Positions 3,151-57,719 of a DNA stretch of 64,000 nucleotides are shown here, in pieces (the first letter of the stretch is position 1; each line of letters opens with the position of its first letter). This DNA is from Pseudomonas rhizosphaerae (GTDB lineage Bacteria > Pseudomonadota > Gammaproteobacteria > Pseudomonadales > Pseudomonadaceae), in NCBI RefSeq assembly GCF_000761155.1, contig NZ_CP009533.1:4457501-4521500 (forward strand), read 5' to 3'. The notes below the pieces were generated by a model. That model was not told the origin of the DNA, ran no database searches, and saw nothing but the letters and a program-made list of their open reading frames with translations. The translations under genes were made by a program, and so were the position numbers.

Positions 3151-4251
3151 TCAGACGTTGAAGCGGAAGTGCATCACGTCACCGTCCTTGACGATGTATT
3201 CCTTGCCTTCCAGGCGCCATTTGCCGGCTTCCTTGGTACCGGCTTCGCCGTTGTACTGGATGAAGTCGTTGTAGGCGATGACTTCGGCGCGGATGAAGCC
3301 TTTTTCGAAGTCGGTGTGGATCACGCCGGCAGCCTGGGGGGCGGTGGCGCCGATCTTCACGGTCCAGGCGCGAACTTCTTCGACGCCGGCAGTGAAGTAG
3401 GTCTGCAGGTTGAGCAGGTCGTAGCCGGCGCGGATCACGCGGTTCAGGCCGGGTTCTTCCAGGCCCAGGGCCTCGAGGAACATGTCCTTCTCTTCGCCGT
3501 CGTCGAGCTCGGCGATTTCGGCTTCGATCTTGTTGCACACCGGCACCACGATCGCGCCTTCTTCTTCGGCAATCACCCGCACCACGTCCAGCAGCGGGTT
3601 GTTCTCGAAGCCGTCTTCGGCGACGTTGGCGATGTACATCACCGGTTTGGTGGTCAGCAGGTGGAAGCCGCGAATGACGGCTTTCTCGTCGTTGCCCATG
3701 TTCTTCATCAGGCTACGGGCCGGCTTGCCCAGGGTGAAGTGGGCAATCAACTGCTCCAGCAGGCCCTTCTGCACCACGGCGTCCTTGTCACCACCCTTGG
3801 CGTTGCGCGCAACCTTCTGCAACTGCTTCTCGCAGCTGTCGAGGTCGGCAAAGATCAGCTCCAGGTCGATGATCTCGATGTCGCGCTTGGGGTCGACGCT
3901 GTTGGAAACGTGGATCACGTTCTCGTCTTCGAAGCAGCGCACCACGTGGGCGATGGCGTCGGTCTCGCGGATGTTGGCCAGGAACTTGTTGCCCAGGCCT
4001 TCACCTTTCGAAGCGCCAGCCACCAGGCCTGCGATGTCGACGAACTCCATGGTGGTCGGCAGCACGCGCTTGGGATTGACGATGGCGGCCAGGGCTTCCA
4101 GGCGCGCATCGGGCATTGGCACGATGCCACTGTTGGGCTCGATGGTGCAGAACGGGAAGTTCTCGGCCGCAATCCCGGATTTGGTCAAGGCGTTGAACAG
4201 AGTGGACTTGCCGACGTTGGGCAGGCCGACGATGCCGCAGTTGAATCCCAT
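3151..4251 (-). CDS. ychF: Redox-regulated ribosome-binding ATPase YchF
   Basis: This 366-residue Obg-family P-loop protein hydrolyses ATP rather than GTP and binds the ribosome, where it is linked to stress responses. The P-loop GLPNVGKST is near the N-terminus, DIAGLV is the G3 motif, and NKIEAE replaces the usual NKxD, which is the change behind ATP specificity. A TGS domain fills the last 85 residues or so. Length matches the family. It follows pth by 21 bases on the same strand, a pairing common in bacteria. Confidence 0.97.
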
Positions 4252-15600: not shown

Positions 15601-17022
15601 CTATTTGGCTTTGCGTGGCAGATTCTTGAATGCTGCCAAGGCGCGCGCGCGTCCCTCTTTCAGGTCCACGATGGGGCGGGGATAGCCGCTTTGCTTGAGT
15701 GCGTCGGCGGTCGGTGCATGGACCTGCTTGCGATCCAATCCTTCCAGCTCGGGCAGCCACTGCTTGAGAAACACGCCTTGCTCGTCGAACCGCTGCGACT
15801 GGCTGACTGGATTGAAGATACGGAAGTACGGCACTGAGTCGGTGCCCGTGGATGCGCTCCATTGCCAACCGCCATTGTTGGAGCACAGGTCGCCGTCGAT
15901 CAGGTGCTGCATGAAGAACCGCTCGCCTTCGCGCCAGTCGATCAGCAGGTTTTTGCTCAGGAACATCGCGGTGATCATGCGCAGACGGTTGTGCATCCAG
16001 CCGGTGGACACCAGTTGGCGCATCGCCGCATCGACGATGGGAATGCCGGTACGGCCTTCCTTCCATGCTTGCAGCTCGCTGGGCGCATTGCGCCAGGGCA
16101 GGGCTTCGTATTCCTCGCGAAACGGCCGGTGCATCGACACGCGCGGGTAGCCGACCATGATGTGCCGGTAGAACTCGCGCCAGATGATCTCGCCGATCCA
16201 CGTCACGGCGCCAACGTTGCCGCTCTCGAATTCTCCACGGTTGGCATTGAGCGCGGCATGCAGGCACTGGCGCGGCGAAACCACGCCCGACGTCAGGTAG
16301 GCCGAAATCTGGCTGGTCCCCGGGTGCGCCGGTAGGTCACGCTCGACCTTGTAGTCTTCGATCGGCTGGTCGGTGAAGGTGTCCAGGCGCTTGTGTGCTT
16401 CCTTCTCGCCAGCCGGCCACAACTTGCGCAGCGCCTCGTCGGGTGTGGTGAAACCCTTGACCTGATCGGGTACCTTGTCGGCGGCGACGTGCACCGGCTT
16501 TTGCGCACGGGGTTTTTTCGCCAGGGCCGGAACGGACTGATGCAGGCGCTCGTAGCAGACCTTGCGGAACTGGCTGAACACCTGAAAGTAGGTGCCGCCC
16601 TTGGTCAGTACGCTGCCGGGCGTGAACAGCGCTTGGTCCAGATAGCGATGCAGAGGGATATCCGCCTTTTTTAGCGCTGCCTCCACTGCTTCGTCGCGGC
16701 GGTTTTCATTGACGCCGAACTCGTCGTTGCAATGCACGGCCTCGATCTTGTGTTCGGCGCACAGCGCGGCGATCACCTTGGGTGCCTTGTCCCAGGTGTC
16801 CGCTTCACGCAGCAGCAGTGGGATGTGCAAGGCCTTGAGGCTGGCACTGAGTTCCTTGAGATTGCGCAGCCAGAAATCGACCTTGTTCGGCGAGTCGTCG
16901 TGCGCAAGCCATTGCTTGGGGCTCAGCAAGAACACGGCCAGGGTCGGGCCCTGCTCGCAGGCAGCTGCCAGGGCGGGGTTGTCGTGCACTCGCAGGTCGC
17001 TGCGCAGCCAGATCAATTGCAT
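15601..17022 (-). CDS. phrB: Class I CPD deoxyribodipyrimidine photolyase
   Basis: PhrB uses light and reduced FAD to split cyclobutane pyrimidine dimers. The 473-residue protein starts MQLIWLRSDLRVHDN (antenna-binding Rossmann domain). Its FAD domain carries EIIWREFYRHIM, STGWMHNRLRM and NNGGWQWSASTGTD, the pattern of class I CPD photolyases. The ATG at 17022 has GAGG five bases upstream; the open frame beyond it is the shadow of the regulator gene. It is the last gene of a three-gene operon with a PplR-type regulator and a DUF523/DUF1722 gene. PplR-type boxes upstream of the operon suggest light induction. Confidence 0.95.
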   Translation of the reverse strand: MQLIWLRSDLRVHDNPALAAACEQGPTLAVFLLSPKQWLAHDDSPNKVDFWLRNLKELSASLKALHIPLLLREADTWDKAPKVIAALCAEHKIEAVHCNDEFGVNENRRDEAVEAALKKADIPLHRYLDQALFTPGSVLTKGGTYFQVFSQFRKVCYERLHQSVPALAKKPRAQKPVHVAADKVPDQVKGFTTPDEALRKLWPAGEKEAHKRLDTFTDQPIEDYKVERDLPAHPGTSQISAYLTSGVVSPRQCLHAALNANRGEFESGNVGAVTWIGEIIWREFYRHIMVGYPRVSMHRPFREEYEALPWRNAPSELQAWKEGRTGIPIVDAAMRQLVSTGWMHNRLRMITAMFLSKNLLIDWREGERFFMQHLIDGDLCSNNGGWQWSASTGTDSVPYFRIFNPVSQSQRFDEQGVFLKQWLPELEGLDRKQVHAPTADALKQSGYPRPIVDLKEGRARALAAFKNLPRKAK

Positions 17023-17042
17023 GGGGGCCTCATCGTTCGGAT

Positions 17043-17954
17043 TCAGGGTTGCCGGTCGGCCAATACGCCGGACGCCTGCAGCAATTGCTGGGCGTGCAAC
17101 GGATCGGTCGCCAGGTGCAGGTCGGCAATGGGAGAGGAGGCGTCGCCTGCGGCGGCGCGGTGGATGAGCACAGCCGAGCCCACCAGCCACTTGGGGCAGG
17201 CGCAGCCCACCAGCAGCCGGCCCAGGGTTGCCAGGTTGAGCGCCTTGTCGGCGTAGACCAGCAGGGCACGCGCTTGCAGCTTGTCGCACGCCAGGGCCAA
17301 TTCGCCGGCTGGGAGTGGCGCGTCGAACACCTGGACCGGGCAATCGCTACTGCTGATCAGCCATGCGCCCAGCCACAGGTAAGGATCCGGGGTAACATCG
17401 GCCTGATTGACCAGCACCACGGGCGCGCCGCTCAGCTGGCGGTTGTTGTGATAGATCCGCGCACCCAGCTTGCTGCGCAGCCAGCCATGGAAAAACACCC
17501 GTTGCATCTGCGCGCCGAATTGGCCTGCCCAACGCTGCTCGAGGTCGTTCAGCAGCGGCAGCAGCAACTGCTCGCACAGGGTCGCTGGGGGATACAGGGC
17601 CATTGCCTGGTTGAACAGATCATCCAGCGGGCGTTCGGCCATGTCTGCAATGGCCTGGGCCAGCGTCTGACGCAGTTGCTGCCAGTCGTTCTGGACCTCG
17701 GGCTGCGCATCGCGGGGAGCATCGAGCAACTGTTTGACCTGGCTGACGGCCACGCCGCGGTTGAGCCAGGTCAATACATGATGGATGCGTGCAATCTGCG
17801 CGGCGTCGTACAGGCGATGACCCTTGGCCGTGCGGTGCGGCACGATCAGGCCATAACGCCGCTCCCAGGCGCGCAGGGTGACGGGGTGCACACCGGTTTG
17901 CCGGGTGACTTCGCGGATCGGCAGCCAGTCGGTGCCGTTGGTCTCAGATGGCAT
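17043..17954 (-). CDS. MerR-family light-response regulator (PplR1/LitR-like)
   Basis: A MerR winged-helix domain at about residues 10-80 (LPIREVTRQTGVHPVTLRAW, then YGLIVPHRTAKGHRLYD) is followed by a roughly 220-residue effector-like domain. No E/DxHxxG cobalamin signature is visible in that domain, which fits the class II LitR proteins of P. putida rather than B12-dependent CarH. It starts inside the end of the DUF1722 gene (11-base overlap) and lies 20 bases before phr, matching the KT2440 order I recall for pplR1-phrB. It is predicted to bind TGTACA-type sites upstream of its own operon. A paralogue lies at 55631-56578. Confidence 0.85.
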   Translation of the reverse strand: MPSETNGTDWLPIREVTRQTGVHPVTLRAWERRYGLIVPHRTAKGHRLYDAAQIARIHHVLTWLNRGVAVSQVKQLLDAPRDAQPEVQNDWQQLRQTLAQAIADMAERPLDDLFNQAMALYPPATLCEQLLLPLLNDLEQRWAGQFGAQMQRVFFHGWLRSKLGARIYHNNRQLSGAPVVLVNQADVTPDPYLWLGAWLISSSDCPVQVFDAPLPAGELALACDKLQARALLVYADKALNLATLGRLLVGCACPKWLVGSAVLIHRAAAGDASSPIADLHLATDPLHAQQLLQASGVLADRQP

Positions 17955-18906
17955 TGCGCAGGCTCAGGTTTTCAGGATGAGGCTGCAAGTAGGTCTGCTG
18001 AGCGATGTAAGGGTCCGGATGAATGCGGAACAGGTGCTTGAGCAGCGTCATCGGCACTACCAGTGGAACGATGCCTTCGCGGTATTGATTGATCAGCTGT
18101 TGCAGTTCCTGCTTGTCCTGCGCATCGATGTCACGCTTGAGGTAGCCGCTGATGTGCTGCAGCACATTGCTGTGGGTGCCGCGTGTGGCGCAGCGTTTGA
18201 GTGCCTGCATCAGTTCGCTGAAATAACGCGGACCGACCTGCTCGGCATCGCCACGGCCCATGCTACCCAGCAATTTGCCCAGCACCTTGTACTGCAGCGG
18301 GTGGTTGGCCATTAGCTGGTATTTGAAGCGCGAATGAAATTCCATCAAGGCGCGCGGCGTCAGGCCGCCGGCCAGCAGCGCCTGCCACTGGGCATAGGCG
18401 CCCACGCGCACCAGGAAATTTTCCCGCAGTACCGGGTCGCACAGGCGACCTTCTTCTTCCACCGGCAGGTCCGGATGGCGTGCGCAGAATGCCTGTGCAT
18501 AAATGCCTCGGCCGCCTTCGCGCTGGGGAGCACCGTTGTCGCGGTAGATCTTCACGCGCTCCAGGCCGCAGGAGGGCGACTTCTGCATGAAGATGTAGCC
18601 ACAGAGGTCGGTCAGCTCACCCGCCATCTGTTCGCCGTAAGCGGCCAGCGGTGCGGTGACGTTGATGTCGGGATGCACAGTGCCCACTGCCTGGGTGTGA
18701 TCCTTGTCGCCAACCAGGCGAATCGGTTCGCGCGGCGTACCCAGGCCAATGGCGACTTCGGGGCAGACCGGGACGAACTCGAAATGCTCGACCAGAATCC
18801 GGCTGCACCAGCGCGACTCCTTGTGCCCGGCGTTGTAGCGCACCGGCGCACCGAGCAGGCAGGCGCTGATGCCGATCTTGGGTTTGCTGACACTGGGCTC
18901 TTGCAT
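17944..18906 (-). CDS. DUF523/DUF1722 (YbgA-like) protein of the photolyase operon
   Basis: The 320-residue product has an N-terminal DUF523 domain (IGISACLLGAPVRYNAGHKES, with QKSPSCGLERVKIY) and a C-terminal DUF1722/YbgA domain from about residue 190 (FHSRFKYQLMANHPLQYKVLGKLL). The function of these domains is not established; Cys residues in SACLLG and SPSCGLE could bind metal. The ATG at 18906 has AGAGG seven bases upstream. It is the first gene of the operon with the PplR-type regulator and phr, directly downstream of two predicted light-regulatory boxes, so a role in the light or UV response is inferred. Confidence 0.85.
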   Translation of the reverse strand: MQEPSVSKPKIGISACLLGAPVRYNAGHKESRWCSRILVEHFEFVPVCPEVAIGLGTPREPIRLVGDKDHTQAVGTVHPDINVTAPLAAYGEQMAGELTDLCGYIFMQKSPSCGLERVKIYRDNGAPQREGGRGIYAQAFCARHPDLPVEEEGRLCDPVLRENFLVRVGAYAQWQALLAGGLTPRALMEFHSRFKYQLMANHPLQYKVLGKLLGSMGRGDAEQVGPRYFSELMQALKRCATRGTHSNVLQHISGYLKRDIDAQDKQELQQLINQYREGIVPLVVPMTLLKHLFRIHPDPYIAQQTYLQPHPENLSLRNAI

Positions 18907-18926
18907 GACGGACCTCTTCTGAAACC

Positions 18927-18950
18927 TGTACATACTGACAACGCTGTACA
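18927..18950. promoter_or_regulatory. PplR-type box A (exact match)
   Basis: TGTACA, 12 bases, TGTACA: an exact match to the site reported for PplR1 of P. putida, T(G/A)TACA-N12-TGTA(C/T)A. It lies 21-44 bases upstream of the DUF1722 start codon, just downstream of a possible promoter (TTGCAT, 16 bases, TATGAT on the minus strand), where binding would block transcription. Confidence 0.75.
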
Positions 18951-18976
18951 GCATAGTTTCATCATAAGTCTGGATT

Positions 18977-19000
18977 TGTACAATGCAAATTCTTTGCACA
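18977..19000. promoter_or_regulatory. PplR-type box B (one mismatch)
   Basis: TGTACA, 12 bases, TGCACA: one mismatch to the PplR1 consensus. It overlaps the -35 region of the putative promoter of the DUF1722-merR-phr operon. With box A it brackets the promoter. Confidence 0.55.
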
Positions 19001-19032
19001 GCTATTTGGCAAACCCCAGGTCGTGCGGTTGA

Positions 19033-20327
<1,295 letters not shown>

Positions 20328-20357
20328 CTATGCACACGTGTGTTCTGAAAACAAACC

Positions 20358-20381
20358 TGTACAAAAGTCTTAATAAGTATA
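20358..20381. promoter_or_regulatory. PplR-like box (one mismatch) in a divergent promoter region
   Basis: TGTACA, 12 bases, AGTATA: one mismatch to the PplR1 consensus. It lies 58-81 bases upstream of the FAD oxidoreductase start and about 120 bases upstream of the divergent epimerase gene, so it could serve either or both. On the minus strand the second half reads TATACT, a possible -10 element. Confidence 0.5.
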
Positions 20382-20504
20382 AGTTAACGGGATCCTTTTC
20401 GCTCAGGTGTCCTATGGTTCATGAGAGAGCCATGACAGTGGAAAGTGCCTCTCTCCTGTAAATAGACTAGCGCTGCAGACGCAACGCCACATTGGAGAAA
20501 CCTT

Positions 20505-21407
20505 ATGCACATATTGCTGACCGGCGGCACCGGACTCATCGGCCGCAAGCTTTGCCAGCACTGGGTAGGGCAGGGGCATCGGCTGACGGTGCTCAGTCGC
20601 CAACCAGGCCAGGTCAAACAGCTGTGCGGGGCCAGTGTGCGCGGTGTCGCGCAGCTCGAGGAAGTCGGCGACGAAACCGTGGACGCCGTGGTCAATCTGG
20701 CCGGCGCGCCGATTGCCGATCGACCCTGGACGGCACGCCGCCGGGCGCTGTTGTGGAGCAGCCGGATCACCCTCACCGAGGGTTTGCTGGCTTGGCTGGA
20801 AAGCCGCACGCAACGGCCTGAAGTGTTGATTTCGGGCTCGGCGGTCGGCTGGTATGGCGACGGTGGCGAGCGTGAACTGAGCGAGACTTCGCAACCGGTC
20901 AAGGAGGACTTCGCCAGCCACCTGTGCATCGCCTGGGAAGAAACCGCCCTGCGCGCCGAAGCGCTGGGTATCCGCGTGGTGCTGGTGCGCACTGGGCTGG
21001 TGCTGGCCAGCCAGGGTGGCTTTCTCAAGCGCCTGACGCTGCCCTTCAAACTGGGGCTGGGAGGGCCGATCGGCAGTGGCCGGCAGTGGATGCCGTGGGT
21101 TCACATCGACGATCAAATCGCCCTGATTGATTTTCTCTTGCACCAGACCCAGTGCCGCGGTCCCTATAATGCCTGCGCGCCAGAGCCGGTGCGCAACCGC
21201 GAGTTCGCTCGGCAATTAGGGCACGCGCTGCATCGACCCGCTTTCCTGCCGCTGCCGTCGCTGCTGCTCAAAGCGGGGCTGGGCGAGCTGTCGGGTCTGT
21301 TGCTCGGCGGCCAGCGTGCACGCCCGGTGGCTTTGCAGGCTGCAGGTTTCAACTTTCGCTACCGCGAACTGTCTGCTGCCCTGACCGAACTGTCTCGGCG
21401 GCTTTGA
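20505..21407 (+). CDS. TIGR01777 family NAD-dependent epimerase/dehydratase (YfcH-like)
   Basis: This 300-residue extended SDR protein starts MHILLTGGTGLIGRKLCQHW with the TGGTGLIG nucleotide-binding loop. A C-terminal DUF1731 region covers about 250-300 (LGELSGLLLGGQRARPVAL). The substrate is unknown. GGAGAAAC lies seven bases before the ATG. It is divergent from the FAD oxidoreductase across 204 bases containing the PplR-like box and is followed by hemH after 34 bases, so it may share a transcript with hemH. Confidence 0.9.
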   Translation: MHILLTGGTGLIGRKLCQHWVGQGHRLTVLSRQPGQVKQLCGASVRGVAQLEEVGDETVDAVVNLAGAPIADRPWTARRRALLWSSRITLTEGLLAWLESRTQRPEVLISGSAVGWYGDGGERELSETSQPVKEDFASHLCIAWEETALRAEALGIRVVLVRTGLVLASQGGFLKRLTLPFKLGLGGPIGSGRQWMPWVHIDDQIALIDFLLHQTQCRGPYNACAPEPVRNREFARQLGHALHRPAFLPLPSLLLKAGLGELSGLLLGGQRARPVALQAAGFNFRYRELSAALTELSRRL

Positions 21408-21441
21408 GCTCTAACCACAGAATCTGGAAATAGGACGCTGC

Positions 21442-22467
21442 ATGACCGATCACGCCCTGCTGCTGGTCAACCTGGGGTCGCCCGCATCGACCCAGGTCGC
21501 CGATGTACGTAGCTATCTCAACCAGTTCCTGATGGACCCCTATGTCATCGACGTGCCGTGGCCGGTGCGGCGTCTTATCGTTTCGCTGATCCTGATCAAG
21601 CGCCCGGAGCAATCGGCACATGCCTATGCCTCGATCTGGTGGGACGAGGGCTCGCCACTGGTGGTGCTGACCCGACGTTTGCAGGCGATCATGACCGAGC
21701 AGTGGCGCCATGGCCCGGTGGAAGTCGCCATGCGCTATGGCGAACCTTCGCTGGACACGGCGCTGTCGCGCCTGGCTGGGCAGGGGGTGCAAAAAGTCAC
21801 TCTGGCACCGCTCTATCCACAGTTCGCCCAGAGCACCGTGACCACGGTGATCGAGCAGGCCCGCAAGGTGGTGCGCGAGCGCAAGCTGTCCATGCAGTTC
21901 AGCGTGCTGCAACCGTTCTATGACCAGCCTGAGTACCTGGACGCACTGGTAGCCAGCGCCAAGCCCTACCTGGCGCAACCCCATGACCATCTGTTGATGA
22001 GTTTTCACGGCTTGCCCGAGCGGCACCTGACCAAGATCGACCCTACCGGCAGCCACTGCCTGCGCACCGCCGACTGCTGCCAGAATGCCCCGCCCGAAGT
22101 GCTTGCCGTCTGCTATCGCGCCCAGTGCCTGCGTACGGCCAGTGCCTTCGCCGAGCGCATGGGGCTGGCCGAGGGCAGTTGGTCGGTGTCGTTTCAGTCG
22201 CGCCTGGGCCGGGCCAAGTGGATCGAGCCGTACACCGAGGCACGCCTCGATGAACTGGCCAAGCAAGGGGTGAAAAAGCTGTTGGTCATGTGCCCTGCGT
22301 TCGTTGCCGATTGCATCGAGACGCTGGAGGAGATCGGCGACCGCGGTCGCGAGCAGTTCTGCGAGGCGGGCGGCGAGGAACTGGTGCTGGTGCCGTGCCT
22401 GAACGATCACCCGCAATGGGGTGAAGCGTTGAACACCCTGTGCGAGCGGGCGCCGTTGATGCTGTAA
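21442..22467 (+). CDS. hemH: Ferrochelatase
   Basis: HemH inserts Fe2+ into protoporphyrin IX, the last step of haem synthesis. The 341-residue product starts [16 protein letters not shown] and contains the conserved SFHGLPERH (metal-binding His) and [16 protein letters not shown]. Length fits the family. It lies downstream of the epimerase on the same strand and converges on the uracil permease gene. Confidence 0.96.
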
Positions 22468-53655: not shown

Positions 53656-54027
53656 TCAGCGGCTGCCGGCGAGGGTGATCGAAACCGATTCGGCGAAGCG
53701 CAGCGCGTGGGGCTTGTCGACTTCCACTTCGGCGTAGCGCACGGCGGTGTTCTGCATGACCAGGTCGAGAATCTCCTGGGTCAGCCGTTCGAGCAGGGCA
53801 AAGCGATTGCCCTCCACGTGTTGGATCACGGCCTTGGTGATGGTGCGGTAGTTCAAGGCATGCTCGATATCGTTGTCGCGCACCGCCTCAAGCGCCGGAT
53901 ACAGCACGGTGAGGTTGATCAGCACGTCCTGTTTGTTGACGATTTCGTCTTCGTTGATACCGATGAAGGTGCGCAAGCGCAGGTCCTTGACCCGGATGCG
54001 TGCCATTCCTGGCTGCAGTTGTGCCAT
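53656..54027 (-). CDS. folX: Dihydroneopterin triphosphate 2'-epimerase (FolX)
   Basis: FolX epimerises dihydroneopterin triphosphate to dihydromonapterin triphosphate. The 123-residue protein shows the family pattern [20 protein letters not shown] and [20 protein letters not shown]. FolX and FolM together give tetrahydromonapterin, the cofactor of phenylalanine hydroxylase in pseudomonads. FolB (aldolase) is the alternative, but pairing with FolM favours FolX. It lies 61 bases after folM. Confidence 0.88.
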
Positions 54028-54088
54028 CGTTGTGTGCTCCGCAGAATGTTCGGGGTCGACGCCGTGCCCGAGCCGACGCAGGCAGACC

Positions 54089-54790
54089 CTATTTTACGTG
54101 TCTGCCGCCGTTGACGGTCAAGGTGGTGCCGGTGACGTAGGGGTTTTCCAGCAGGTAGCGCAGGCTTTGGTAGATGACCTCGGCGCCCGGCTCGATGCCC
54201 AATGCCGACTTGGCCAGCGACTTGTAGCGGTAGTCGGCGTCGTCGTCCGGATTGAACAGGATCAGCGCCGGAGCGATGCCATTGACCTTGATTGCCGGTG
54301 CGAAGCGTGCAGCGAACGACAGGGTCAGGTTGTCCAGCCCCGCCTTGCTGGCGCAATAGGCCATGTGCTTGGCACTGCCCTTGCGCGTCACGTCGTCGCT
54401 GATGTGCACGATATCGGCAGGGCTCGACGCACGCAACAGCTCGGCGCAGTGCAGGTTGATGAGGTAGGGCGCCAGCATGTGCACGTTGACCATCTGCTGG
54501 AACGCAGCCGCTTCGTCGCCCGCACTGTCGGCGATCCAGGCCGAGGCGTTGTGGACGATGGCACGCAGCTTCGTGGTCTGCGCTTTCAGCGCAGCGATGA
54601 ACGCCAGGATGCCAGCTTCGCTGGCGAAGTCCGCCTGGATGGTCACTGCGCCCATCTCGCGCAGATGAGCGACGGTCTCACGCTCCTGGCGGTAGCTGAT
54701 GATGACCGGCTGGCCTTCGCCCAGCAGGCGTTCGGCGCAGTGCAGCCCTATGCGCTGACTGGCGCCGGTGATGAGGATCGGATGAGGCAT
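54089..54790 (-). CDS. folM: Dihydromonapterin reductase (FolM)
   Basis: FolM reduces dihydromonapterin to tetrahydromonapterin with NADPH. The 233-residue SDR enzyme has [19 protein letters not shown] (cofactor loop), the YxxxK pair in [13 protein letters not shown] and a C-terminal NGGRHVK. It lies just upstream of folX and downstream of a monooxygenase-domain gene on the same strand. Confidence 0.9.
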
Positions 54791-54857
54791 GTGGCGAGCT
54801 CTTGGTCGGCAGGTTGCTGCGCTGATTTATACCACAACGCGCAGCAGGGCCGGCCGA

Positions 54858-55424
54858 TCAGGCCACCTTGACCTTGGGCAGTGGGGCGCGGGTCGGCGTG
54901 GCGTGCAACCAGCCCCGCAGCAGGCGCGTCGACAGGGGAATGAAGAAAAACACCATGATCGGGGTCAGGGCCAGGGTGCTGAGCAAGACTCTGGGCACCA
55001 GGCTGATCTCGTTCAGGACGTGACCGAACAGGAAGTTGAAGATCAACGACACCGGGAAAAAAGCCAGCCAGATGGCCACGGCCTGTTTCCACCGAGGTGG
55101 ACGCTGCAGGCCGCTGTCGCCGAACCAGCCTTCGGTGCCGCTCACCCGGTGCACGTGGGGCTGGGCGAACAGGTCGCTGCCACGGCCCAGCCATGAGCGC
55201 CGGGAAGCCGAGTGCTCCCATGCGTGCAGGGTGGTTTCATCGGCGAAGCGGAAGATGATCTGGAATTCGTCATCGCCAGGCGCCGGTGCCAGGACGCCTG
55301 AGCCCAGGTAACCCGGAAAATCGGTGGCCAGTTGTTCGCCTTCATGCAACCAGGCGATCAGGTCCTGATATTTGCCATCGGCGACGCGGCGCGCAACCAT
55401 CAAGGTAACGGGGGAGGTAGACAT
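54858..55424 (-). CDS. Antibiotic biosynthesis monooxygenase-domain membrane protein
   Basis: The 188-residue protein has an N-terminal ABM-like domain (LMVARRVADGKYQDLIAWLH to about residue 90) and two C-terminal membrane helices (AVAIWLAFFPVSLIFNFLFG; VLLSTLALTPIMVFFFIPLS). Function is unknown. The ATG at 55424 has TGGAG upstream. It is the first gene of the folM-folX-DUF1244-hopJ run and is divergent from the second PplR-like regulator gene across 206 bases. Confidence 0.82.
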   Translation of the reverse strand: MSTSPVTLMVARRVADGKYQDLIAWLHEGEQLATDFPGYLGSGVLAPAPGDDEFQIIFRFADETTLHAWEHSASRRSWLGRGSDLFAQPHVHRVSGTEGWFGDSGLQRPPRWKQAVAIWLAFFPVSLIFNFLFGHVLNEISLVPRVLLSTLALTPIMVFFFIPLSTRLLRGWLHATPTRAPLPKVKVA

Positions 55425-55630
55425 CGTGTATCTCCAGGCAATCTGGTGCTCCGGGTAGGAGCCTCCATCGAATGCAGCGCCGGGGTGGTGGGCTGCATCT
55501 GAAATCAAGCAAGTATTATTCCTGAAAACCACCAATTGCACATCTACCGTCCGTTGGATCATCCATGAACCTCGATGTGCCGGCAGCGGTTACACTGTGG
55601 TTTCCTGTTCCTGGCGGCGGTTGACGAGCA

Positions 55631-56578
55631 ATGAGCGAATCCAGCACCCGATTGCCTGGCGTGCAAGACCCTGCGCTGGACGAGCTGTACCCCATTCGCG
55701 AGGTGGCCCGACTCACCGGGATCAATCCAGTCACGCTGCGTGCGTGGGAGCGTCGCTATGGCCTGGTACAGCCAACCCGCACCGAAAGTGGGCATCGCTT
55801 GTACTCTTTGGCCGATATCGAGGAGGTGCGCAGCATCCTGGGTTGGATCGAACGCGGTGTAGCGGTGAGCAAGGTCGGCAAGATCCTGGCGCGCACCCAG
55901 CAGGCCAGAACGGCAGCGCCCAGCCCTGGCGACGAGCACCATGAATGGCAGCGGTGGCAAGAGCGGATTCGCCAGTGTGTACATGAATTTGCCGAAGCTC
56001 GCCTTGATCAGGTCTACGGCCAAGTGTTCTCCAGCTACCCGCTGGCCGTGGCCTTCGAACAGGTATTGATGCCCGTCTGGCAGGAACTGCTCGTGCATCA
56101 GGGCCACTTTGGCCAGGCCAGCGAGTGGTTGTTTCTCGACACGTTCCTGCGTGCGCGCACTCTGCAAAGGCTGCGCCTGACCTGCGATCAGGGCCAGGAC
56201 AGCCGGGTGCTGCTGGTCGCCATACCGGATCAGTGCCGCGAACTCGAGCTTCAGGTCAGCGGCCTGCTGTTGGGCGGGCCACAGGTGGACGTGCAGCTGC
56301 TGGGTCTCGGTCAGCCGCTGGAAGAGCTCAGCCTGGTCTGCGAGAAGATTGCGCCCCATGCCGTGGTGCTGTTTTCCAACCGCCCCCCGGTGCCGACCCT
56401 GCCCAAGCAGTTGGCCAGGTTGAGCAATGCCCTGAATTGTCCGCTGCTATTGGCCGGCGAGCTGTCCGAGATGGTCCATGAAAGCCTGCGCGCCACTGAC
56501 ATCGTGTGTCTGGGCAGTGACGGGCGCTTGATGCAGCGGCGTCTGCAACAGTACCTGGCGGGCCACCTGGACAGCTGA
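55631..56578 (+). CDS. MerR-family light-response regulator (PplR3/LitR-like)
   Basis: The 315-residue regulator has a MerR DNA-binding domain at about residues 18-90 (LYPIREVARLTGINPVTLRA, then YGLVQPTRTESGHRLYS) very like the regulator at 17043-17954. The C-terminal half lacks an E/DxHxxG cobalamin motif. It lies next to a short LOV photoreceptor gene, as described for pplR3/ppSB1-LOV in P. putida KT2440, so it is probably a partner in blue-light signalling. No PplR-type box was found in its upstream region, suggesting constitutive expression. Confidence 0.85.
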   Translation: MSESSTRLPGVQDPALDELYPIREVARLTGINPVTLRAWERRYGLVQPTRTESGHRLYSLADIEEVRSILGWIERGVAVSKVGKILARTQQARTAAPSPGDEHHEWQRWQERIRQCVHEFAEARLDQVYGQVFSSYPLAVAFEQVLMPVWQELLVHQGHFGQASEWLFLDTFLRARTLQRLRLTCDQGQDSRVLLVAIPDQCRELELQVSGLLLGGPQVDVQLLGLGQPLEELSLVCEKIAPHAVVLFSNRPPVPTLPKQLARLSNALNCPLLLAGELSEMVHESLRATDIVCLGSDGRLMQRRLQQYLAGHLDS

Positions 56579-56589
56579 CCGAGCGGGCT

Positions 56590-57195
56590 TCAGGTGTGCG
56601 GCTGCGGATGGACCAGGTGATGCTGCTGCAGGATGAACTGACGCAGCGACTCGATCGCCTTGGCGTTGTTCTGGCTGAGCCGGTACGCGAACAACCCCTG
56701 TTCGGCCTCGCGAATCATCGAACCGCGCAGAGGTATCGGCGAGCAGCCTTCGGGGGTGAACCACAGCTGGAACTGCGTGGGCGCCTGCGCGCCGTTGCGC
56801 GCTTCGAGCAGGGCGCCCTTGAAGGAAATGTCCCGCACCCAGAAGTCGCTGTCGCGCCCTTCGCTGTCGCGCAGGACGATCGGCTGCGCCAGGCTCAGGC
56901 GCCAGGGGCGCAGCATCGGCCCGTCTTCGTAGATGCTCGGCGCACCCAGTTCCAGATGGGCCGCCTGGAACTCGTCCTCCACCACCTGCAGGGGGAAACT
57001 GATCTGCTGATTTTCCAAGTGCGCCTCGATGGTGACCTGCTCGTGGGAGGCCAGGCGCATGAGCAGTTCGCGTACCTGTGGACCGCCCTTCACCGAAAGG
57101 CTGAGCAGGGTGTCCCGCACGTTGAGCTGCGGATTGGCCTGCATGGCCCGCAGGAAATCCAACTCGTCCTGGGTCAGCAACACATCAGGTGGCAT
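56590..57195 (-). CDS. PilZ-like domain protein
   Basis: The 201-residue soluble protein has an N-terminal helical part and, from about residue 88, a PilZ-like domain: LRPWRLSLAQ (a shortened form of the RxxxR loop) and WVRDISFKGALLEARN, which matches [D/N]xSxxG. PilZ domains bind c-di-GMP; the imperfect first motif leaves binding uncertain. The start at 57195 (MPPDVLLTQ) is chosen over a GTG three codons earlier; neither has a clear ribosome site. It lies about 56 bases after the LOV gene on the same strand. Confidence 0.75.
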   Translation of the reverse strand: MPPDVLLTQDELDFLRAMQANPQLNVRDTLLSLSVKGGPQVRELLMRLASHEQVTIEAHLENQQISFPLQVVEDEFQAAHLELGAPSIYEDGPMLRPWRLSLAQPIVLRDSEGRDSDFWVRDISFKGALLEARNGAQAPTQFQLWFTPEGCSPIPLRGSMIREAEQGLFAYRLSQNNAKAIESLRQFILQQHHLVHPQPHT

Positions 57196-57251
57196 GGCGC
57201 GCACTCATGGCGAAAGGGATTCAAAGCAACCCTGGGAAATGTCCATGCCCG

Positions 57252-57719
57252 TCACGCCGGACCCGGGCGCGCAGGGGTGTCCAGTTCAGCAAGTCGCCGT
57301 TGCAGGGCCGCGACCTGCTGCTCCAGATCGATGATGCGCTGCTGCGCCTCGACCTCGCGGCTGACATCCTTCTGGATCCCGATGTAGTACATCAATTGGT
57401 CGCTTTCGTTGTGTACCGGCGTGATCGACAGCTCATTCCAGAAAAAGCTGCCGTCCTTGCGGTGATTGCGCAGGACCTCGCGGCATGCCACGCCCTGGTC
57501 GATCGCCTCGCGTACGCGCCGGCGCGCCGGCTGGTCGCGGTCGTCACCCTGCAACAGGCGGCAATCCTGGTAGAGCATTTCCAGCGAGGTATAACCGGTC
57601 ATGCGTTCGAACGCCGGATTGACGTAGATGAGGATATTGTCCTCACCTTCCTGTTCGGCGACGACGATGCCGTCGTTGGACGCATCGATCACCAATTGCA
57701 GCAGCTTCGCGTTGATCAT
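57252..57719 (-). CDS. Short LOV-domain blue-light photoreceptor (PpSB-LOV-like)
   Basis: The 155-residue protein begins MINAKLLQLVIDASNDGIVV and is a single LOV domain with no fused effector. The flavin-adduct motif reads YQDCRLLQGDDR, keeping the photoactive Cys and the Gln/Asp/Arg that contact FMN, with WNELSITPVHN and YYIGIQKDVS further on. A C-terminal coiled-coil helix (VEAQQRIIDLEQQVAALQRR) is the usual output element for dimers. It is very similar to the short LOV proteins of P. putida that act with PplR regulators. AGGGAA precedes the ATG. Confidence 0.9.
   Translation of the reverse strand: MINAKLLQLVIDASNDGIVVAEQEGEDNILIYVNPAFERMTGYTSLEMLYQDCRLLQGDDRDQPARRRVREAIDQGVACREVLRNHRKDGSFFWNELSITPVHNESDQLMYYIGIQKDVSREVEAQQRIIDLEQQVAALQRRLAELDTPARPGPA

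Follow-up and report, generated by a model that had tools for sequence, protein, structure and literature searches.

The closest described relative of the promoter analysed here is P6650 of Pseudomonas mendocina NBRC 14162, which heads nine light-induced genes of the pmlR1-phrB region (PMC9758184). P6650 reads TTGACT-N16-TATGAT, its start was mapped 48 bp from the ATG, and it carries two similar operator sites, one over the -35 element and the other between the start site and the ATG (PMC9758184). PmlR2 represses this promoter in vitro, with both sites inside one broad DNase I-protected region, and illuminated PmSB-LOV binds PmlR2 and relieves the repression (PMC9758184). The two binding assays conflict, because illuminated PmSB-LOV and PmlR2 stayed on the DNA in gel shifts whereas in surface plasmon resonance illuminated PmSB-LOV abolished PmlR2 binding, and it is the latter result that the authors favour (PMC9758184). 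In P. mendocina, blue light raises pmlR1 RNA about 6-10 fold and phrB RNA about 27-33 fold (PMC9758184). In P. putida, genes PP_0738-PP_0742 were up in an illuminated co-culture, a change that the authors did not credit to light itself (PMC11014904), and transcription in P. putida without both LOV genes has been described as constitutively low in dark and light. Additionally, RudS, a TudS-DUF1722 fusion, has been reported to remove 4-thiouridine from tRNA, PP_0741 of P. putida being among the enzymes assayed (PMC11417400). The regulators of this group, the class II LitR proteins, are described as B12-dependent in one source (PMC11417400) and as not needing B12 in another (PMC9758184).

We analysed a stretch of 64,000 nucleotides of the P. 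rhizosphaerae genome (assembly GCF_000761155.1, contig NZ_CP009533.1, positions 4,457,501 to 4,521,500; the window), for which a sequence-only reading had proposed two PplR-type operators around a dark-repressed promoter. Both sites were recovered where that reading had placed them (Table 1). Box 1, TGTACATACTGACAACGCTGTACA, has no mismatch to the PplR1 consensus T(G/A)TACA-N12-TGTA(C/T)A and is its sole exact match in the whole 4.685 Mb genome, and box 2, TGTACAATGCAAATTCTTTGCACA, has one mismatch; the gap between them is 26 bp. The minus-strand promoter proposed between and under the boxes, TTGCAT, 16 bases and TATGAT, also held, with the refinement that TTTGCA with 17 bases, picked by a consensus scan, fits slightly better (4/6 matches to TTGACA vs 3/6). 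The -35 element is weak, reading TTGCAT or TTTGCA, and the -10 element and spacer agree with the TTGACT-N16-TATGAT type. From the position of the predicted promoter and the ATG, box 2 would lie over the -35 element and box 1 between start site and start codon. A promoter scan of positions 16000-22000 returned two promoter-like sites against 0.7 in shuffles, which is weak evidence. Six matches to the box consensus with at most two mismatches were found in the window (shuffle mean 1.26; none of 100 shuffles reached six), and 13 places in the whole genome match with at most one mismatch, compared with 4 for the reversed pattern. Three of these 13 cluster inside 1.5 kb of the window (P ~2e-5, taking the 10 remote sites as background density). 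The third of them, box 3, was absent from the sequence-only reading and probably puts the FAD-oxidoreductase and TIGR02450 genes under LitR.

Table 1. Predicted regulatory elements and genes of the light-response loci, with positions in the window
Feature	Position	Strand	Remarks
phrB, deoxyribodipyrimidine photolyase	15601..17022	-	NF007955 above cut-off; start by translation
litR1, class II LitR, PplR1-like by synteny	17043..17954	-	MerR HTH + B12-binding_2
rudS, TudS-DUF1722 fusion, predicted tRNA 4-thiouridine desulfidase	17944..18906	-	Pfam PF04463 + PF08349
Box 1, predicted class II LitR operator	18927..18950	-	TGTACA-N12-TGTACA; ~+5 to +28, downstream of predicted start site
-10 element	18966-18961	-	TATGAT; predicted start site near 18954, 48 bp ahead of rudS ATG
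-35 element	18983..18989	-	TTGCAT (18988-18983, 16-base spacer) or TTTGCA (18989-18984, 17-base spacer)
Box 2, predicted LitR operator over -35	18977..19000	-	TGTGCA-N12-TGTACA on the minus strand, 1 mismatch
TIGR02450 Trp-rich protein (DUF2389)	19033..19257	-	profile match
FAD-dependent oxidoreductase	19254..20300	-	domain search
Box 3, LitR-like site	20358..20381	-	1 mismatch; 57 bases ahead of FAD-oxidoreductase ATG
litR2, second class II LitR, PmlR2-like	55631..56578	+	sole other LitR1 homologue found in the genome
Short LOV blue-light receptor, 155 aa, predicted anti-repressor	57252..57719	-	motif DCRLLQ, without effector domain

Downstream of this promoter, the operon announced by the sequence-only reading as DUF1722-merR-photolyase has the minus-strand order rudS, litR1, phrB. 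Its first label needs correction, since DUF1722 covers just the C-terminal portion of RudS and a TudS (2-thiouracil desulfurase) domain occupies the N-terminal part. The probable start of rudS is the ATG at 18906, with AGAGG just upstream, rather than that of the longer frame from the GTG at 18999. All seven residues expected of the enzyme (PMC11417400) are conserved, at the KT2440 positions minus one: the three cluster cysteines C16, C48 and C113, the catalytic E50, R59, S110 and S112, so that desulfidase activity is predicted for this fusion. LitR1 matched the Pfam domains PF13411, PF00376 and PF02607 only. No match was obtained in LitR1 at E 0.001 to PF02310, which we take to be the family of the second, cobalamin-holding B12-binding domain. 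LitR1 has, in other words, the domain pattern of a class II LitR and not the second B12-binding domain by which CarH and class I LitR are recognised. A MerR domain with B12-binding_2 and no second B12 domain is also the pattern given for the PmlR proteins (PMC9758184).

Because the window also encodes another class II LitR, along with a short LOV, the published circuit is complete there, and two LitR, one short LOV and three boxes all fall within ~42 kb of one genome. LitR2 matched the HTH, with no B12-binding_2 match at E 0.001. The putative short LOV has the features of its ~150 aa class, a PAS/LOV domain only and a cysteine within DCRLLQ (in place of DCRFLQ), and its best PDB match was 7r5n (E 7.9e-66, residues 1-147). 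These genes belong to a cluster at 53656-57719 that encodes a FolB/FolX-like protein, a FolM-like protein, a protein whose ABM match is sub-threshold, LitR2, a PilZ-domain protein and the short LOV, and no box with at most two mismatches was found near the litR2-LOV-fol part of the window.

Taken with the biochemistry of P6650, this arrangement suggests that the rudS-litR1-phrB promoter is very probably controlled by class II LitR and light-inducible, with LitR repressing in the dark and the short LOV relieving repression in blue light; binding and light response at the boxes in P. rhizosphaerae itself are what we infer by analogy. In the dark, LitR2, LitR1 or both would sit on box 2, over the -35 element, and on box 1, just past the start site, and with both boxes occupied RNA polymerase would be unable to use the promoter. 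Under blue light, binding of the short LOV to LitR would abolish repression and the operon would be transcribed, the photolyase then mending UV dimers and RudS stripping 4-thiouridine from tRNA. As litR1 lies inside its own operon, light would also raise LitR1, which could help restore repression afterwards. Side-by-side cooperative binding of LitR at boxes 1 and 2 is plausible. DNA looping between them, the other mode raised by the sequence-only reading, found no support, given the 26 bp between the boxes and the continuous published footprint.

The same architecture was found across the genus in loci chosen by protein and not by DNA. From 62 LitR1-anchored loci of named Pseudomonas genomes, L047 was dropped for having too little upstream sequence, which with the window left 62 scorable loci. 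All 62 (window included) have an exact box 1, and box 2 occurs with at most two mismatches at 49-51 bp in 60 of them (none in 54, one in 5 and two in 1), the centre-to-centre distance being 50 bp in 50 loci, 49 in 9 and 51 in 1. In L063 and L064 (about 3880-3940) the upstream box, judged by eye, apparently has a 13-base spacer, TGTACA-N13-TGCACA. Because the box pair and its spacing are conserved, the same operator role is expected in the window, and the claim of two PplR-type operators around a sigma-70 promoter is thereby supported together with the P6650 biochemistry. Among 104 distinct promoters selected by box match, with 48-52 bp allowed, the spacing was 50 in 81, 49 in 15 and 51 in 8, and of 398 Pseudomonas genomes, counting that of the window, 235 have a strict double box and none has the reversed pattern. 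In an alignment of 83 distinct promoters, information content reaches 1.76-1.98 bits per column at the half-sites, -35 and -10, against 0.45 for the box 1 spacer and 0.46 for the upstream flank, a contrast inflated by the choice of these rows partly on the same elements; the 62-locus counts are not inflated. A site with at most one mismatch also stands at the position of box 3 in 61 of the 62 scorable loci (L065 is the exception), and this conserved third box before the FAD-oxidoreductase gene is new but small.

We also asked whether the spacer of box 1 extends the palindrome or could form an RNA hairpin. Complementarity of the inner spacer arms, taken over 94 distinct sequences of box 1, was 276 against a column-shuffle mean of 210.7 (0 of 2000 shuffles as high), and it became weak when thinned to 30 dissimilar sites (72 vs 58.9; 34 of 2000). 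G-U pairs were not enriched, and the window's own box 1 forms one of six inner pairs. With the signal weak after thinning, and symmetric protein contact sufficing to explain it, this feature was set aside. A second kind of double-box promoter was observed at L137 4087-4161 (with a -10 of TAGGCT type) and L138 3960-4034, in both cases directly adjoining a short LOV gene and near an SDR/FAD-oxidoreductase cluster; a homologue of the FAD oxidoreductase of the L137 cluster was not found in the window's genome at E 1e-10, in a search run without a positive control.

Several observations weigh against the main reading, among them the conflicting binding assays and B12 statements cited above, the lack of a box near the litR2-LOV-fol genes and the double boxes of some genomes in which no short LOV was found. 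Another is the state of the window's own promoter, whose -35 element and outer half of box 2 are degenerate. This -35 falls in the final six bases of the box 2 spacer; 55 of the 62 loci have TTGACT there, and TTGCAT was found in the window only. The nearest relatives are L057 (G043, P. baltica) and L005 (G249), each with 93% LitR1 identity. Where these have TTGACC at -35 and TAAGAT at -10, the window has TTGCAT and TATGAT, and the outer half of its box 2 has changed to TGTGCA, with box 1 identical in all three; L005 box 2 also has one mismatch, but at its inner half. It is thus conceivable, if rather unlikely, that box 2 and the -35 have drifted in this lineage in such a way that repression now works mainly via box 1 and the better -10 re-sets promoter strength, leaving a weaker or leakier switch. 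The changes listed fit that account, and yet the inner half-site of the window's box 2 is intact and the total of consensus matches is still 9/12 in the TTTGCA register, as it is in the nearest relatives. From these comparisons, the altered -35 and box 2 look like drift with compensation, a change in the window lineage that is new but small.

A second alternative holds that the regulator at the boxes answers some other light-derived or oxidative signal and not LOV, as proposed for the MerR-phr pair of V. cholerae, whose MerR has been linked to blue light with a proposed reactive-oxygen route (PMC5241685). One ground for it lies in genomes without a short LOV. A search for the short LOV at E 1e-25, with the best nine candidates scored per genome, matched 365 of 398 genomes, and one for LitR1 homologues at E 1e-30, with the best five scored, matched 394 of 398. 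Sixteen of the LOV matches were weak (best E >1e-40) and probably represent other LOV proteins, which gives 349 genomes with and 49 without a short LOV. The 49 have one LitR match in 43 cases, two in 2 and none in 4, and because 43 have a single match, the second LitR and the LOV tend to go missing together. By hand tally, 14 of the 49 nonetheless keep a strict double box. Six of these 14 were inspected, and in three (G018, G149 and G189, loci L131, L132 and L136) the pair stands before rudS-litR1-phrB and box 3 is kept as well; in the other three (G190, G127 and G259) the double box is elsewhere, none of 16 window proteins matching within the 8 kb examined. The strict double box is, on the other side, more frequent in genomes with a short LOV, at 221 of 349, compared with 14 of the 49 others (Fisher P 8e-6 and odds ratio 4.3, uncorrected for relatedness). 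Because the operon of G020 and G182, which also have no short LOV, is accompanied by boxes 1 and 3 and no box 2 within one mismatch, a general retention of the double box without LOV is disfavoured. Since genes for a short LOV and a PmlR2-like LitR are present in the window, and P. putida without both LOV genes shows the low transcription mentioned above, a signal other than LOV is improbable as the input here.

For the genus as a whole the question is a different one, and how LitR1 is controlled where no short LOV was found is the one lead beyond routine, although it concerns relatives and not the window. Since no short LOV was found in some genomes that have the double box, inputs other than the short LOV are possible in the genus. 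It is doubtful, though worth considering, that the LitR1 double-operator circuit does without the short LOV across the genus. In the species that keep the operon, LitR1 and both boxes with no short LOV found and mostly a single LitR, LitR1 would then answer another light or oxidative signal or no longer respond to light, and the LitR1 and LitR2 of the window might, on the same view, take different inputs to the two boxes that they share. In this regard, (N/D)CRFLQ motifs are present elsewhere in G018 and G149, where LOV kinases are therefore possible, and no such motif was found in G189 by that imperfect pattern, which misses the short LOV of G043 and G249, cannot match DCRLLQ and therefore gives weak negatives. 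BLUF proteins as an alternative sensor were searched in 32 genomes (26 of the 49 without a short LOV, including G018, G149 and G189, and 6 with one) and found in none, the E. coli control being positive. Searches of the open-licence literature listed no paper on a double operator kept without a short LOV. At L069 133-1722 (own genome, near position 1.957 Mb) we observed a gene whose 529-aa product bears an NCRFLQ LOV motif in its N-terminal part and looks like a LOV histidine kinase.

Lastly, that boxes 1 and 2 are chance matches without a role is scarcely credible, for although the remote one-mismatch sites of this genome look like chance (4 of 10 inspected), three sites fall inside 1.5 kb and the genus-wide conservation of the boxes contradicts it. 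A wider LitR regulon in this genome was also considered and dropped, since none of those four remote sites lies beside a recognisable light gene.

The reading that we prefer is a LitR-repressed, LOV-relieved promoter. In the genus-wide sample, promoters with two such operators prove to be common in Pseudomonas, as a light-response device linking DNA photorepair to removal of 4-thiouridine from tRNA. The window, being a local version of the P. mendocina switch that is common in the genus, is largely ordinary: the switch is probably functional, its architecture is known, and the result is useful as annotation.

Among known systems, CarH and class I LitR share the MerR HTH and B12-binding_2 with LitR1, which differs from CarH in the second B12-binding domain, for which it gave no match, and in scoring 67 bits against an NCBIfam CarH cut-off of 400. 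In V. cholerae MerR-phr (VCA0056-VCA0057) a MerR-like regulator likewise adjoins a photolyase and the response is to blue light, the reactive-oxygen route being proposed there and no LOV partner being mentioned in the available text of the source (PMC5241685). Another known system is the PplR1 regulon of P. putida KT2440, with the consensus site, PplR1 and PhrB as neighbours, RudS as PP_0741 and PplR1 as PP_0740 (PMC9758184, PMC8508746, PMC11014904); KT2440 is described as having three PplR and two short LOV, and two LitR and one short LOV were found in the P. rhizosphaerae genome. The double-site architecture itself is already published, and by synteny the window promoter is the P6650 orthologue. 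It resembles P6650 in its two TGTACA-N12-TGTACA-type sites, 16-base spacer, TATGAT -10 and start-to-ATG distance of 48 bp (predicted in the window, mapped in P. mendocina), and differs in the one mismatch of box 2 and in a -35 of TTGCAT/TTTGCA instead of TTGACT. Among the genes seen in the litR1 region of the window there is no counterpart of the SDR/ufaM genes that the P. mendocina unit has, and the LOV motif of the window is DCRLLQ. We further infer, from its place, that PME6650 of P. mendocina, called hypothetical in PMC9758184, is a RudS. Both genomes have a litR1/pmlR1 and phrB unit, a short LOV and a second LitR, and the litR2-PilZ-LOV-fol arrangement of the window resembles the pmlR2 region of P. 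mendocina.
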